NCBI GenBank assembly: GCA_019310485.1
Contig: JAFDEF010000020.1
Span: 18,791-82,790 of the forward strand
Length of the DNA stretch: 64,000 nucleotides
DNA from: Deltaproteobacteria bacterium
GTDB taxonomy: Bacteria; Desulfobacterota; DSM-4660; Desulfatiglandales; HGW-15
Direction of reading: 5' to 3'
The notes beneath the pieces were generated by a model. It was not told the origin of the DNA and did not search any database. It was given only the letters and a program-made list of their open reading frames with translations. Every line of letters starts with the position of its first letter. Position 1 is the stretch's first letter. Shown here one piece after another: positions 19,013 to 26,492 of this stretch. A program made the position numbers and the translations under genes.

Positions 19013-19037
19013 GGCTCCTCATGAGAATCTGTGCTGA
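19013..19037 (+). repeat. Left terminal inverted repeat of the ISL3 element
   Basis: GGCTCCTCATGAGAATCTGTGCTGA; it also contains the last codons and stop of the transposase, QHRFS-stop, read on the minus strand. Confidence 0.88.
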
Positions 19038-20245
19038 CAAATTGGTAGTTGAAGCTTACCGAGGCTATGAATCAAGGCCAGTGAGAATGTTTTCTCAGAC
19101 CTATATCCACGTGCGCGGTGGCTGATCACTTTGGCGTTATTATTCATCGCTTCGACTATGCCGTTGTCAATTCTCAAATCAAAATATGCAAGGATACCTT
19201 CTTCATGATTTCTCAGCATCCATGCAAAGTCTCGCAAGGGTTTCAATCTACTATGGGTAGCCCACCAAAACCACTGCTTCAGATACCTTGCTGCCCACCC
19301 TTTGCGTTTATAGCTCCACAGCTTTCTGAAGAGTTCTTTAAGGAGATAAGCTTTAACCACTTTCAGGTTCATCTTGAGGAGTTCACTTGAACGGATTTTC
19401 TGTTTGTCACTTAGATTCCAGGGGTTTTTGATCCACATATACTTGGTCCCCTTAAGGAGTTGAGGATCAGTTTCCTGGAGGGCCTTAGCTTCCATTTTCC
19501 GGACCTTGTCCACAGCTTCTATGAGATGTCGGACGATGTGGAACTTATCAAGTACGGTGACGGCTTCAGAGCAGTACTCATGAATCACATCAATATAGTT
19601 TTGCCACATGTCACAACAGATTCCCTCGATGCCCGCTGTGCGCTCTTTTCCCCACCACTGGAAAAACCGGCGCAAGGAATCTTTATCTCTATGGGCGCCG
19701 CTCCAGAGGAGCCGCTTTCGTTCAAGATCGTAAACATTGGTATGGTACGTATGGCCTCTTTTTCTGCTGATCTCGTCAATGCCAATGAATCGGACCCCTT
19801 TATAGTTTTCCCTCTCCCTTCCATACTCCACCGCCGCTTCCACTGCTGCACTGACAGTATTCCAGGAGACATTGAACAGCCCAGCCACCTGTTCCCATGG
19901 CAGCAATCTACTCCAGAAGGCAAGCACAGTGATAAGGGGAAAACTGATGGGTCTTTTTCCCAAGCTCCAGGGAATTGCCTCCACCTTAATCCCATGTTCT
20001 GGGCAGTTGACCCTCCTGGGTTGATAGTAAAGGAAGACGGGAATGCCCCACAAAGACACATGAGCCCATTTCCTCATTTTGAGCTTATCCTTAACATAAG
20101 AGCGTCTGCCACACAGACCACAAGGCAGTTTTCGTCTCTTCCTGGCATCCAGGCTGATCCTCAGTTCGTTGCCTTCAAATTTGACGGAAACTACACGATG
20201 ATCCTTGATTCCAAGAGTAAAACGTACGATACTTTCTATGAGCAT
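19019..20245 (-). CDS. ISL3-family transposase
   Basis: 408-aa DDE transposase of the ISL3 (IS204/IS1001/IS1096/IS1165) group. It has an N-terminal zinc-ribbon/HTH region (LPCGLCGRRSYVKDK, CPEHG) and the catalytic core with candidate acidic residues in VRFIGIDEISRKRGHTYHT, GIEGICCDMWQNYIDVI and DNGIVEAMNNNAKVISHRAR. An ATG at 20245 with GGAGG seven bases upstream is a good start. No internal stop or frameshift, so the element may be active. It fills most of the 1343-bp IS. Confidence 0.92.
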   Translation of the reverse strand: MLIESIVRFTLGIKDHRVVSVKFEGNELRISLDARKRRKLPCGLCGRRSYVKDKLKMRKWAHVSLWGIPVFLYYQPRRVNCPEHGIKVEAIPWSLGKRPISFPLITVLAFWSRLLPWEQVAGLFNVSWNTVSAAVEAAVEYGRERENYKGVRFIGIDEISRKRGHTYHTNVYDLERKRLLWSGAHRDKDSLRRFFQWWGKERTAGIEGICCDMWQNYIDVIHEYCSEAVTVLDKFHIVRHLIEAVDKVRKMEAKALQETDPQLLKGTKYMWIKNPWNLSDKQKIRSSELLKMNLKVVKAYLLKELFRKLWSYKRKGWAARYLKQWFWWATHSRLKPLRDFAWMLRNHEEGILAYFDLRIDNGIVEAMNNNAKVISHRARGYRSEKTFSLALIHSLGKLQLPICQHRFS

Positions 20246-20945: not shown

Positions 20946-23417
20946 ATGGGAAAAAGGAAGAAAAGGAAAAGACAAAAAGGTCCAAATAAAACTGCGCCGA
21001 TAGAGGTCTTGGAAAAAAAGGCAAGTGATGCCTTGCAGGCTAGAAAATACCGGCAGGCTAGAGACTACCTTAAAGAGCTTTGCAAGCGTGACAGGGAAAA
21101 GTATCTGCCTGAGCTCATTGCGGCCCACGAAGGCCTTGCCCTCCAGATGATAAATGAGGGTCGATTCAGCGATGCAAAACAAGTGGTGGATCATTTAACC
21201 GATCTCGGGGCCACTGGGAAAAAAGGCTGGCTTGAGTTTATTGTCTCTTTTAAGCAAGGTGATTTCGTGAAGGCCGCTTGCGCAGCACTGCGATTGCTTG
21301 AGGAAGATGATAATATAACTGAATCAGGCGAAAAACTATTAATGTATGATTCATTGGTCCTTCCCTTTGAAGCTCTTGATATTGCCAAAACACCTAAACA
21401 ATTTTCAATCATCAGGGAGGCCAACCAGGTTCAAGCAGCCCTGAAGCTTGTGAGTGAAGAGAAATATGAAGAGGCAATGGCCTGCTTGAGGGCTGTTTCG
21501 TTGAGTTCTCCATTTTCACACTGGAAATTGTTCGTGAAGGGATTGATCGCCTTTTACAAAATGGAAGAACAAAAGGCCCAAAAGGCCTTCAGCAAGTTGC
21601 CTGACGAGTCGATTCCTGCCAAGGCGGCCGAGCCTTATATGCTGCTACTTGGTAGTCGGGAGGGCTTGAAGAAGTATCAGAAAAGGGCAGATGTGCTCGG
21701 GCTAGCATGCTGGGTGGCTGCAAGGAAAGATCTGGAGTCAGTGTTGCCCAGGGCGGAGTATCTTTGGGGGGTAGGCCGGTTTCGGGACTCTTATGCCCAT
21801 GTCAGGCGAAACATTGAGGGATTTCCCTCTGAGGACCAGGGGATAATTCAGGGCCTTTCGGATTTCTATCTTAATGCGGTTTTCCAGATGAAGGAAAGGG
21901 ACGCGGACAGGTATATTGACTTTTTGGACAAGATGGTGGCCAGAGGCAAGACAGATGGAGCTGAGAAGCTGATGATTCTGCGGACCATAGGCCTTTGGCT
22001 TGAGGATGTGGGGGCCGATGATCCCATGGTGTTGGGGGTTTGGAAGGAGTTTCTACGCTGGCATCGTGAGGTCCACGGGGAGAACAGGGATCTCCAAGCG
22101 CTTGTCTGTGTCCACCTTGGTGACCTTTTCTCAAGAGAGGTAATCAGGCATCCCCCATTTTTCCCCTTTTCTGGAGGAGCAACGTCAAGGCGGCCCGTGG
22201 TGCATAATGAGCGGCTGGCCCAGTACTGCTATGATACATGCCTCGAAATTGATCCTACCAACAAACAAGCCCATTTTTCCCTTCTGGCTCTCTATGAAAA
22301 GACGGGGCAGAAATCCAAAATAAACAAGAAGCTTGATGAAATCATTGAGCTTTTTCCAGAGGATAAGGATACGCTTTACAAGGCGGGCCTTAGGTGTGTG
22401 GACCGCAAGGCTTTTATAAAGGGCATGAAGTACCTGGAATGGGCCGCTAAACTTGACCTTCTGGATATGAGGGTGAGGGAGGCGTTAATTGTTTGCTGTA
22501 TCAAAGCTGCCCTGGAGTATGCAAAGAGGTCCAAGGTTGAGCAGTACAGGCCCCTTCTTTCCAAGGCACTGGAGTATGGAGAATCAGATTCAGATGATTT
22601 CAATCTTGGACATGCTTATCTGTACGCCCGATGGGCAACCTTTGAGCTTCTCAACAACAATGTGACTGATGCCGAGCAGTTGTTGGACAAGGCCTCAGAG
22701 CTTGGTCGTCATGAGCCAAGATTTTTATATTTTAAATTCCTTGTTGGAAGGCTCTATCAAGTTCCGTCCAAGTACATGAGTAGTATTGAGAAGAGGGTAA
22801 AGAAGGAGTTTTCAGGCCGGGCCTCTCCTGAAAAGGCGATAGCCTTTGCTGATGTAATATCTTATTTCCAACGTGCCTCCCGCACAATTCCCAAGTGGTT
22901 TAAGGAAGAACAGAGGAGGGTTAATAGGTATATTCGAAAGACGGCCAAAGGGGAATTTTCACAGGCGCAGGCAAGGGTGTTTGTCGAATATGCGCTTCAG
23001 AACACGGACGAAGATCTGGCCTGGAGCTATATAAATAAGGCCCTTGAGCAAAACCCGGATGATCCCTACTTTCTTTTCGTGCGCTTTCAGTTAGAGGTTG
23101 GTTCCTTCTATGGCTTTGTGGACGAAGAGGAATTGGACGAACTTAAAAGGATCCTGAGTCTTGCACAAAAGCAAAGGGATCAGGAACTGATCCCCAGGAT
23201 AAGAAAGACTATTGAAGAGATAGAGAAAATGGGCTCTGTTCGTGACATCTTTGACAACCATGATGAAGAGTTGGACGAGGAGGAAGAAGATCTTGATGAA
23301 GCGGTGGATATATTTGTGGAGAATCTGTTGAGGGAGGCCAATAAAAAAAGGCCCGGGAGACAAAGGAAAAAAAGAAATAGTCCTTCAGGTGCCACACAAT
23401 TAAATCTTTTTGATTAA
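20946..23417 (+). CDS. Large tetratricopeptide-repeat protein of the Hsp70 cassette
   Basis: 823-aa soluble protein, nearly all helical, with TPR-like pairs throughout (ARKYRQARDYLKELCKRD, AHFSLLALYEKTGQKSKINK, DTLYKAGLRCVDRKAFIKGM, AWSYINKALEQNPDDPYFLF). It has a very basic start (MGKRKKRKRQKGPNK), an acidic run near 775 (EELDEEEEDLDEAVD) and a second basic patch before its end, SGATQLNLFD. QLNLF fits the QLxLF beta-clamp-binding consensus, which may be chance. No enzymatic motif is seen. There is no clear ribosome site before the ATG. It leads a five-gene plus-strand set and is the likely client- or partner-binding subunit. Confidence 0.85.
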   Translation: MGKRKKRKRQKGPNKTAPIEVLEKKASDALQARKYRQARDYLKELCKRDREKYLPELIAAHEGLALQMINEGRFSDAKQVVDHLTDLGATGKKGWLEFIVSFKQGDFVKAACAALRLLEEDDNITESGEKLLMYDSLVLPFEALDIAKTPKQFSIIREANQVQAALKLVSEEKYEEAMACLRAVSLSSPFSHWKLFVKGLIAFYKMEEQKAQKAFSKLPDESIPAKAAEPYMLLLGSREGLKKYQKRADVLGLACWVAARKDLESVLPRAEYLWGVGRFRDSYAHVRRNIEGFPSEDQGIIQGLSDFYLNAVFQMKERDADRYIDFLDKMVARGKTDGAEKLMILRTIGLWLEDVGADDPMVLGVWKEFLRWHREVHGENRDLQALVCVHLGDLFSREVIRHPPFFPFSGGATSRRPVVHNERLAQYCYDTCLEIDPTNKQAHFSLLALYEKTGQKSKINKKLDEIIELFPEDKDTLYKAGLRCVDRKAFIKGMKYLEWAAKLDLLDMRVREALIVCCIKAALEYAKRSKVEQYRPLLSKALEYGESDSDDFNLGHAYLYARWATFELLNNNVTDAEQLLDKASELGRHEPRFLYFKFLVGRLYQVPSKYMSSIEKRVKKEFSGRASPEKAIAFADVISYFQRASRTIPKWFKEEQRRVNRYIRKTAKGEFSQAQARVFVEYALQNTDEDLAWSYINKALEQNPDDPYFLFVRFQLEVGSFYGFVDEEELDELKRILSLAQKQRDQELIPRIRKTIEEIEKMGSVRDIFDNHDEELDEEEEDLDEAVDIFVENLLREANKKRPGRQRKKRNSPSGATQLNLFD

Positions 23418-23432: not shown

Positions 23433-23738
23433 ATGAATCCTTTTGAAGTCCTTGGGGTAGGGGTGGATGCTGATGATGTTTCTGTGAGGAAAGCCTATCT
23501 TGACCTGGTAAGACGTTATCCCCCGGAGAAGCATCCCGAAAAATTCAAACAAATTACTGATGCCTATGATCGCTTGAAGGATAAAAAAAGCCGCCTGGAA
23601 TATTACCTCTTTAACCGGGAGACTCCTTTTAGGTCTCCCTTTGAGGTCTTGATTTCACATTTTTCAGAGGCAGATGGGAGAAGGCCTCCTAATTTTGAAG
23701 AAATTAAGGAGTACTTGAGAAGATGTGCGATTCAATAA
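23433..23738 (+). CDS. Degenerate J-domain protein (PPE instead of HPD)
   Basis: 101-aa protein consisting of little more than a J domain: MNPFEVLGVGVDADDVSVRK, then AYLDLVRRYPPEKHPEKFKQ and ITDAYDRLKDKKSRLEYYLF. Helices I-III align with DnaJ (DPYEVLGV..VRKAYLDLVRRY..EKFKQITDAYDRL), but the HPD tripeptide that triggers Hsp70 ATP hydrolysis is PPE, and the loop to helix III is short. No zinc-finger or substrate domains. GGAGGAAGG precedes the ATG, 15 bases after the TPR gene, and the grpE-like gene overlaps its 3' end by 16 bases. It presumably partners the DnaK two genes downstream. Confidence 0.85.
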   Translation: MNPFEVLGVGVDADDVSVRKAYLDLVRRYPPEKHPEKFKQITDAYDRLKDKKSRLEYYLFNRETPFRSPFEVLISHFSEADGRRPPNFEEIKEYLRRCAIQ

Positions 23739-24448
23739 CTACGCCTGAGATACACCCTGATGAGGGTGTATTAAAAAAGGCGGACAGCGGCGCCCAGGAA
23801 TGGCAAAAGACCATCAGAGAGAATCTTGATCTTTGGCTCAATGAGGTTACCAACCTTGAGGATATTGAGCCTGCAGATGACGAACCACCGGATCTTGAAT
23901 CATTCTTTTCGCAATTGTGTATCCTGAGCGCCGAGTTTCGCAAAGCGAGCAGGCGGAGTCATGATACATTTGTCCAGATGGGTGAGACCCTGGCTGAATT
24001 TGATGGAGCGTTAAAGAGGATCTCAGCCAAGCTTTCGGAATTTGAGAAAGAAAAACAGGCCGAGGATATCCTTTCAAAAAAACGGATCTACCTCCCGTTG
24101 GTGGAGATGTTCCAAAGATTCAAGCGCATACAAGAGAGGCTGAACCGGCCGCCTAGATCTCGGTTTCTTTTCTTAGCCACTTCCTGGCAAAAGGCATGGA
24201 AGGAATTACGGGAAGGCTTTAACATATTATGTGCCCATTTTGAGGCCCTGCTTGGCAGTGAGGGCATAACGCCCGTGGAGGCCCTAGGCAAGGCCTTTGA
24301 TTCCACCCTCATGACGGCCGTTGAAGCAGAAGAAACTGATTCCGCCCCCCCGGGTACAGTAATAGAAGAATTCTCAACCGGATTTTTGTATAAGGGCTAC
24401 CCCCTGAAACTGGCAAAAGTCAAGGTAGCAAAAGGGAAAGGAGTATAA
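23723..24448 (+). CDS. GrpE-like nucleotide exchange factor
   Basis: 241-aa protein. The C-terminal quarter is recognisably GrpE: FEALLGSEGITPVEALGKAF, then DSTLMTAVEAEETDSAPPGT and VIEEFSTGFLYKGYPLKLAK, matching the beta-domain that opens the DnaK nucleotide cleft. The N-terminal half is a long charged helix region (LAEFDGALKRISAKLSEFEK) instead of the usual paired GrpE helices with NLRKR-type sequence, and a middle segment RFKRIQERLNRPPRSRFLFL is unlike GrpE. It starts within the J gene and ends two bases before dnaK, so translation is coupled. Function as exchange factor for the neighbouring DnaK is inferred. Confidence 0.82.
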   Translation: MCDSITTPEIHPDEGVLKKADSGAQEWQKTIRENLDLWLNEVTNLEDIEPADDEPPDLESFFSQLCILSAEFRKASRRSHDTFVQMGETLAEFDGALKRISAKLSEFEKEKQAEDILSKKRIYLPLVEMFQRFKRIQERLNRPPRSRFLFLATSWQKAWKELREGFNILCAHFEALLGSEGITPVEALGKAFDSTLMTAVEAEETDSAPPGTVIEEFSTGFLYKGYPLKLAKVKVAKGKGV

Positions 24449-24450
24449 GA

Positions 24451-26184
24451 GTGGAGGTAATTGTAGGAATAGATTTGGGTACCACAAACTCTGAAATCGC
24501 GGTGATCAAGGACGGGAGGCCCGAGGTGATCCCCGTAGATGGAGAGTTGATCATGCCCTCATGCGTGGGAATAGACAGAAACGGGTCATTGATTGTGGGA
24601 AGGCCTGCAAAGAACCAGATGGTTTCAAATCCGGAATCCACCATTTTGTCCATCAAAAGGAAAATGGGCCAGGACACGAAGGTCAGGCTTGGCGACAAAG
24701 ACCTAACCCCGGAAGAGGTCTCAGCCCTTATCCTAAAGAAGTTGAAGGCAGAGGCAGATGCCTATCTGGGAGAAGAGGTAAAAAAGGCGGTCATAACAGT
24801 CCCCGCATATTTTGATGATAGCCAGAGAAAGGCCACCAAAAATGCGGGTGCCCTGGCCGGCCTGGAGGTGATGAGGATCATAAATGAACCTACCGCAGCA
24901 GCCCTGGCCTATGACAGCAAGCTGGAGGAAAACCAAACTATTCTGGTCTATGACCTTGGGGGAGGCACCTTTGATGTTTCATTGGTGACAGTGGAAAATG
25001 GGGTGGTTGAGGTGAAGGCCAGTCACGGCGATACTCACCTTGGGGGAGATGACTTTGACAACCTTTTGATGGAACATGTGGCCAGGATATTTCGTAGGCA
25101 GCATGGGGTTGATTTGTTGGCTGACCTTCGTTCTCGAAACAGGTTGTGGTCTGCTGTGGAAAAGGCCAAAAGGGAACTATCCGATATGCCCTATGTTTCA
25201 ATTAAGGAAGAATTTATCCATGGCGATCATCACCTTGATGTGGAGGCCTCTAAATCCGAGTACGAGGCTATGATAACTCCTCTGTTAAAAAAGACCATTC
25301 ATTCAGTTCACCAGTGCCTGAAGGATGCCAATTTACTTCCCCGCGACATTGATAAGATCATTCTTGTGGGAGGGGCCACCCGCACACCCCTGGTCGCCAA
25401 AATACTACAAAACGAGGTGGGAGTAGAGCCCAGGCATGAAATCAGTCCAGATCTGATTGTGGCCATGGGTGCCGCCATACAGGGCGGCGTGATCGGGGGT
25501 GTAGAAACCGACTCCGTTTTAGTGGATATTACCCCATACACCTTTGGAACCAGCGCGGTGGACTTTCGTAAGGGGGATTTTTGTGAGGATGTGTTTGTTC
25601 CTATTATCAAGCGAAATACCCCTCTTCCGGTCACCAAGGCCGAGGTATTTGCAACCCTTTTTGACGGGCAGGAATCAGTGGATGTGAGGATCTATCAGGG
25701 TGAAAAACCAATTGCCTCAGAGAATATATTTATAGGCAATTTTATCATAAATGGCCTGAGCGATGTTCCTGCCGGAAACCAGATAGTGCTGAAGCTGCAC
25801 CTGGATCTGGACGGCGTCCTGGAAGTGACGGCAGAGGAAAAGAGGACAGGTTTGTCAAAAACGGTCAGGATGGACACCGGAAAACCGGGAAGTGTTTTTG
25901 ACCTCCAGAAGGCAAGAAAAAATATCGCCGCCTTGCTCAATGAAGAGGAACTCGCGCAACAGGGCAAATCCGTTGAAGGTGAAAGTAGAGAGGGGCTTGT
26001 GGGAGAGGCCAAGGAGCTTCGCAAACGGGCTGAAAAGATAATGGATATCATTGATGAGACAGATGCCTATGAGCTTCAGGCGCTTATTAAGCAAACCAAG
26101 GATGCCATTGCCGGGGGGGACATAGAAAGAGTGGCCGAACTGAACGAATCACTCTCTGATATGCTTTTTTATCTGGAGGATTGA
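24451..26184 (+). CDS. DnaK-like Hsp70 chaperone, short form
   Basis: 577-aa Hsp70. All three actin-fold signatures are intact: VGIDLGTTNSEIAVI near the start, VYDLGGGTFDVSLV at about 170, and IILVGGATRTPLV at about 308; INEPTAAALAYD is also present. The substrate-binding beta domain follows (LVDITPYTFGT, FIINGLSDVPAGNQIVLKLH). The lid is cut to about 110 residues and ends LSDMLFYLED, without the disordered tail of housekeeping DnaK (about 630-640 aa). Start is GTG with AAAGGAG before it. It is a dedicated paralogue rather than the main DnaK, judging by length and partners. Confidence 0.93.
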   Translation: MEVIVGIDLGTTNSEIAVIKDGRPEVIPVDGELIMPSCVGIDRNGSLIVGRPAKNQMVSNPESTILSIKRKMGQDTKVRLGDKDLTPEEVSALILKKLKAEADAYLGEEVKKAVITVPAYFDDSQRKATKNAGALAGLEVMRIINEPTAAALAYDSKLEENQTILVYDLGGGTFDVSLVTVENGVVEVKASHGDTHLGGDDFDNLLMEHVARIFRRQHGVDLLADLRSRNRLWSAVEKAKRELSDMPYVSIKEEFIHGDHHLDVEASKSEYEAMITPLLKKTIHSVHQCLKDANLLPRDIDKIILVGGATRTPLVAKILQNEVGVEPRHEISPDLIVAMGAAIQGGVIGGVETDSVLVDITPYTFGTSAVDFRKGDFCEDVFVPIIKRNTPLPVTKAEVFATLFDGQESVDVRIYQGEKPIASENIFIGNFIINGLSDVPAGNQIVLKLHLDLDGVLEVTAEEKRTGLSKTVRMDTGKPGSVFDLQKARKNIAALLNEEELAQQGKSVEGESREGLVGEAKELRKRAEKIMDIIDETDAYELQALIKQTKDAIAGGDIERVAELNESLSDMLFYLED

Positions 26185-26492
26185 TGAAAATAACATGTCC
26201 TGCTTGCAAAAAGGCCAGTCAGACCGGCGATAAGTGCCTGCGGTGCGGATGCGATCTATCCATACTTCGGCAGATTCGTGAGGCTGCAACATATGAACTG
26301 GGAAGAGCCGCAAGGCAGTTGAGGAATAATAATGGACAAGTGGCCCTGGCACATGCAAAAAGGTCATGGAGCCTTAAAAACAGCGCATCTGCAGCGAGAA
26401 CTGCCTTCATGGCCTGCCTATTGATGAAGAAATTTGATGAGGCGACACAGTGGTATTCCCACTTGCTGAAATTGAAGCATCCTGTTCCTTAA
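26184..26492 (+). CDS. Small zinc-ribbon / TPR-like protein ending the Hsp70 cassette
   Basis: 102 aa. An N-terminal treble-clef or zinc-ribbon is evident in MKITCPACKKASQTGDKCLR then CGCDLS (CxxC..CxxC), followed by helices that look like one or two TPR units (HAKRSWSLKNSASAARTAFM, FDEATQWYSHLLKL). Its ATG overlaps the dnaK stop (TGATG) behind CTGGAGG, so it is co-translated. The zinc ribbon recalls that of type I DnaJ proteins, which the cassette's J protein lacks, so it may supply that part in trans; this is inference. Confidence 0.75.
   Translation: MKITCPACKKASQTGDKCLRCGCDLSILRQIREAATYELGRAARQLRNNNGQVALAHAKRSWSLKNSASAARTAFMACLLMKKFDEATQWYSHLLKLKHPVP

Follow-up and report, generated by a model that had tools for sequence, protein, structure and literature searches.

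We describe here a five-gene chaperone cassette of a Deltaproteobacteria bacterium, and in particular the tail of the protein encoded by its first gene. The cassette lies in a stretch of 64,000 nucleotides of contig JAFDEF010000020.1 (assembly GCA_019310485.1); we call the whole stretch the window, and all positions are counted from its first letter. Head to tail, and either no more than 15 bases apart or slightly overlapping, the genes encode a tetratricopeptide-repeat (TPR) protein, a J-like protein, a GrpE-like protein, a short Hsp70 and a zinc-ribbon protein (Table 1). The TPR protein ends in GATQLNLFD, preceded by a basic tail, and this end holds a putative binding motif for the sliding clamp, DnaN.

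Table 1. Features of the cassette, with their positions in the window.
Feature	Position	Strand	Evidence
TPR/alpha-solenoid scaffold protein, 823 aa, first gene of the cassette	20946..23417	+	open reading frame; TPR_17 and TPR_14 over Pfam cut-offs; helix-pair model of residues 19-767; 33 homologous C-termini
Predicted disordered tail, residues 768-823: acidic stretch, basic stretch and clamp motif in turn	23247..23414	+	pLDDT below 50; sequence
QLNLF pentapeptide, residues 818-822, putative DnaN-binding motif, followed by D823 and stop	23397..23411	+	Qxx[LF]F in 21/33 homologues; published consensus QL(S/D)LF
J-domain protein, 101 aa, PPE in place of HPD	23433..23738	+	DnaJ domain, E 5.9e-12
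GrpE-like protein, 241 aa, N-terminal extension	23723..24448	+	GrpE Pfam, E 1.1e-18 at residues 153-237
Short Hsp70, 577 aa, ends in FYLED	24451..26184	+	HSP70, E 2.8e-151; under NCBIfam DnaK/HscA cut-offs
Zinc-ribbon protein, 103 aa, CPAC..CxRCGCDL, fifth gene	26181..26492	+	homologue at the same place in loci whose available sequence extends that far

A Pfam search of the TPR protein returns TPR repeats and no other family. In an AlphaFold2 model computed on eight homologues, residues 19-767 form an alpha-solenoid, mostly at high confidence, while the predicted local distance difference test (pLDDT) stays below 50 over residues 768-823: the tail is thus predicted to be disordered, and the motif at its end to be exposed. 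Residues 801-823 read KRPGRQRKKRNSPSGATQLNLFD and are encoded at 23346-23414 on the forward strand, immediately before a TAA stop; the tail peptide of the protein is KRNSPSGATQLNLFD. An earlier note on this DNA had reported a QLxLF-type C-terminal peptide at these positions, after a basic disordered stretch, and both observations hold. Foldseek was used to look for a particular relative of the solenoid with a solved structure, and its matches are only generic TPR or alpha-solenoid proteins (Naa15, Ctr9, Ski3, IFT-A) with template-modelling scores of at most about 0.26; no function is therefore drawn from them.

Conservation of the C-terminal pentapeptide

When genome contigs are scanned with the single protein as query, no match is found; a scan based on an alignment does give matches. 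The family was compared over 33 C-termini that are intact, drawn from Desulfobacterota, Verrucomicrobiota and Planctomycetota, and identity to the protein of the window ranges from 26 to 53% in an alignment of 13 rows. Some rows are closely related, namely three from Syntrophales (QASLF or QALLF) and three near-identical ones from anammox bacteria, but most are not.

The pattern Q-x-x-[LF]-F occurs within the last 16 residues of 21 of the 33 C-termini, where shuffled tails lead one to expect 0.09. In 18 of these 21 tails the third position is moreover D, N, S or E, against an expectation of 0.03 from the shuffles. Over the full length of all these TPR proteins the pattern Q..[LF]F is matched 30 times, and 21 of these matches sit in the last 16 residues; as a C-terminal motif it is found in none of 253 proteins of the same loci that are outside the family. 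The possibility of a chance occurrence, which the earlier note had kept in view, is excluded by these figures.

The pentapeptide takes the forms QLNLF, QLDLF, QQNLF, QRNLF, QTSFF, QASLF, QMDLF, QLELF, QQDFF and QTTLF in Desulfobacterota and Verrucomicrobiota. The protein of the window ends in TQLNLFD, and its relatives in EQLDLFDELET (G006), IQQNLFD (G018), RQLNLFE (G066), VQRNLFDDQ (G068) and QQTSFFDDLD (G189); a tail from Syntrophales is SQASLFDDSECPF, one from Pedosphaera is NQMDLF and one from Verrucomicrobiales AQLDLFNL. Further tails are DQLDLF, RQMDLF, DQLELF, NQLDLF, NQQDFFE, RQTTLF, SQPELF and TQMDLF.

When the tails are anchored on the motif, the linker upstream of it has a mean pairwise identity of about 0.1, and has diverged past alignment; in this comparison the search pattern itself dictates positions 1, 4 and 5, and the informative columns are positions 2 and 3 and those of the linker. 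The tree of the family has long branches, with motif-bearing rows scattered across the deep ones, and its well-supported branches force at least four changes of motif state. The earlier note had proposed the conservation of the end residues as a check, and the tails do not vary freely: the pentapeptide persists across long branches while the linker drifts, so that selection acting on the motif is well supported.

A single DNA pattern search for Q-x-x-[L/F]-F-[D/E]-stop has four matches in the whole source genome, including the one in the window. Two of the others (L033 and L034) differ in frame or strand from the open reading frames found there, and L035, the remaining one, has TGG at its end and so lacks a stop codon; the match of the window is thus the only one that is the end of a gene.

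The published consensus of the bacterial clamp motif is QL(S/D)LF, usually near the C-terminus (PMC9690074; PMC4549789), and the motif-bearing tails of the TPR family agree with it, both in the QLNLF of the window and in the preference for D, N, S or E at the third position. The resemblance to the motif of DnaE, Pol II, the Y-family polymerases and the transposases of insertion sequences extends to Q1, L4 and F5, to the small polar or acidic third residue, and to the location in a disordered protein end. What differs is the carrier: the known ones are polymerases, repair enzymes or transposases, and here the putative binding is that of a TPR scaffold in a chaperone cassette.

Within the source genome, DnaE carries DPNQLNMFAL, with the variant QLNMF, and several of the TPR tails from Verrucomicrobiota share its DPNQ context. 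QLCLF stands close to the end of a candidate Y-family-like polymerase, a protein taken as such only because of its size and the place of its gene. This gene lies between those of a LexA-like protein and of a second DnaE, in a row (L094, on G000:C53) resembling an ImuB-DnaE2 mutasome operon. The genome has one DnaN locus (L037:1067-2203, reverse strand), and the protein retains TDGHRL, FPDY..V and MPMRL, stretches that line the groove in Escherichia coli; they are common to bacterial clamps and are therefore weak evidence.

The other members of the cassette

The order of the five genes is the same in the homologous loci of Desulfobacterota (including Syntrophales), Planctomycetota (anammox) and Verrucomicrobiota, as far as the available sequence of each locus extends. 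One departure was noted, at L083 (G1169:C4), where a fragment of the TPR gene appears to run into the reading frame of GrpE and the J gene is absent; from its sequence, this looks like an internal deletion of the cassette.

The J-like protein lacks the histidine of the His-Pro-Asp (HPD) triad in all 33 sequences, those of the window and of 32 other loci: the position is occupied by S in 14 of them, P in 12 and T in 7. The remainder of the triad persists, with proline in 32 of 33 proteins and D or E in all 33, yielding the family pattern [S/P/T]P[D/E]. Judged by this sequence, the protein is not expected to stimulate Hsp70 by the usual route, and the cassette may use an unusual manner of Hsp70 switching, or borrow a J protein from elsewhere. 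A corrupted HPD triad is also found in the Pam16-type J-like adaptor of the mitochondrial import motor, an adaptor that brings in a J protein and adjusts Hsp70 activity at one set place (PMC10939069). The likeness is one of logic only: the present system is bacterial, and its cassette contains no HPD-bearing J partner.

The third product scores 68 bits against the GrpE family of Pfam, whose cut-off is 25.8, which places it among the GrpE-like exchange factors. The Hsp70 falls below the equivalog cut-offs for DnaK, with 541.7 bits against 648 (NF001413) and 536.9 against 822.55 (TIGR02350). Since two other DnaK-like proteins are encoded in the source genome, on C60 and C87, the Hsp70 of the cassette is an additional one. 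Its acidic FYLED end is conserved in 17 cassettes, with the variants FYLDD, FYLEE and FYMED, and the ends of the other two DnaK-like proteins differ from it. Eukaryotic TPR co-chaperones bind the C-terminus of Hsp70, which reads EEVD. Here too a TPR protein is encoded with an Hsp70 whose acidic C-terminus is conserved, although the terminus is FYLED and not EEVD; by analogy, TPR proteins may dock on it.

The zinc-ribbon protein, which begins with CPxC..CxRC, adjoins the Hsp70 in cassettes of three phyla, and has no family over the cut-offs of Pfam and NCBIfam. As a whole, the cassette is like the DnaK-DnaJ-GrpE system in encoding an Hsp70, a GrpE-like exchange factor and a J-domain protein side by side, and unlike it in the shortness and the scores of the Hsp70, in a J protein of 101 residues without the HPD histidine, and in the addition of a TPR scaffold and a zinc ribbon. 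The cassette was also compared with known anti-phage defence systems using PADLOC, which yielded no convincing match, only weak ones from the Hsp70 and the zinc-ribbon protein.

Proposed docking of a chaperone system on the clamp, and its alternatives

We favour, as likely on these sequences, a reading in which the TPR protein anchors a dedicated Hsp70 system, made up of the other four products of the cassette, to the sliding clamp DnaN. Judging from gene order, the TPR solenoid would gather the J-like protein, GrpE and Hsp70; judging from the conservation of the motif, the long flexible tail would end in a peptide that fits into the hydrophobic groove of DnaN. The clamps of replication forks and of repair patches would thereby hold the Hsp70 system in place, and there it would remodel the proteins bound to them, or protect them. 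The parts of this proposal are not equally firm: the sequence of the tail points strongly to binding of DnaN, and a role of the cassette in replication or repair, which the earlier note had raised for the case that the motif is real, is a weaker inference; that the five products assemble into one machine is what their arrangement suggests. There is a precedent in the titles of the reference list of PMC4980987, according to which DnaK-DnaJ-GrpE is required in the replication of mini-F and P1.

Several observations weigh against this proposal. The motif is missing from 12 of the 33 homologues, so that the cassette can persist without it. All six rows of the anammox class lack it (L048 and L065-L069): five have basic ends (GRGRRKR, KKKK), and the sixth, L069, ends in QLEFDFS, which is akin to a hexapeptide variant of the motif. 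The ends of G164 and G193 are degenerate (TPSLLDLLDD and VSSLFDFLDD), and four rows of Verrucomicrobiota have either no motif or QFNLL. The cassette itself is patchy, being present in 5 of 85 genomes of the order of the source organism, and the genes that neighbour it in the window are not replication genes. The cassette is also carried by 6 of 395 genomes of the phylum, 16 of 293 of an order of Verrucomicrobiota and 7 of 75 of the anammox class. Just upstream of it, at 19019-20245 on the reverse strand, is a full-length transposase-like gene whose product has 408 aa, with CxxC pairs near the N-terminus, which may bear on the patchy spread.

Two ways in which the motif could have been overlooked were considered. 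A frameshift might hide it, and reading all three frames past the TPR stop in nine motif-less homologues revealed none. It might have moved to another member of the cassette, and neither Q..[LF]F nor QLx[LF]x[LF] occurs anywhere in the J, GrpE, Hsp70 and zinc-ribbon proteins of 17 cassettes. The cassettes without the motif still keep the other four genes; the link to the clamp is common, not obligatory, and has perhaps been replaced or lost in some lineages.

The conserved QxxLF could be read by a partner other than DnaN, for example the substrate site of the cassette Hsp70, the J-like protein or the zinc-ribbon protein. Hsp70s prefer short hydrophobic peptides with basic residues nearby, a preference that a basic tail followed by LNLF fits, and the fixed order of the genes makes partners within the cassette plausible. 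However, the invariant glutamine, the polar D, N, S or E at the third position and the terminal Leu-Phe make up the clamp consensus and not a generic Hsp70 site; the DnaE of the same genome has a nearly identical peptide; and the four potential partners are retained where the motif is gone. We thus consider this alternative improbable.

A little less probable still is that the motif does bind DnaN with the clamp as client, the cassette serving to fold, assemble, unload or clear sliding clamps. The evidence of the motif is the same under this hypothesis, and a chaperone scaffold whose peptide recognises a single abundant protein is what one would expect of a tether and of a dedicated chaperone alike. 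However, in well-studied bacteria DnaN is not known to need a chaperone of its own for folding or dimerisation; most relatives of the source organism lack the cassette; and a groove used for client recognition would set the chaperone in competition with every other partner of the clamp. That the motif is a functionless product of chance or mere common descent is very improbable: it is only five residues long and many homologues do without it, but the counts against shuffled tails and background proteins, and the persistence of Q1, L4 and F5 beside a linker that can no longer be aligned, speak against it.

Docking of the Hsp70 system on DnaN, through the TPR protein, therefore remains our preferred reading. 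Its extension to a whole class, that is, fork-bound Hsp70 machines anchored to DnaN by a TPR protein, travelling with the clamp or called to it in Desulfobacterota and Verrucomicrobiota, and using a J-like protein without the HPD histidine, has in our view about an even chance of being right.

Clamp motifs and Hsp70 systems are each of known kinds. In the open-licence literature searched, no paper ties a cassette of this sort to the clamp or describes a chaperone cassette with a conserved clamp motif, and no bacterial Hsp70 system is known to carry a clamp-docking peptide of its own. DnaK, DnaJ and GrpE were themselves discovered through DNA replication, that of lambda, P1 and mini-F. That none of the J proteins of the cassettes has the HPD histidine raises a clear mechanistic question, that of how the Hsp70 is switched. 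If the peptide does bind DnaN, chaperone action at forks or repair sites would become directly accessible to genetics and biochemistry, a chaperone would join the known partners of the clamp, and an uncharacterised family of five genes, spread over three phyla, would be given a place in the cell.
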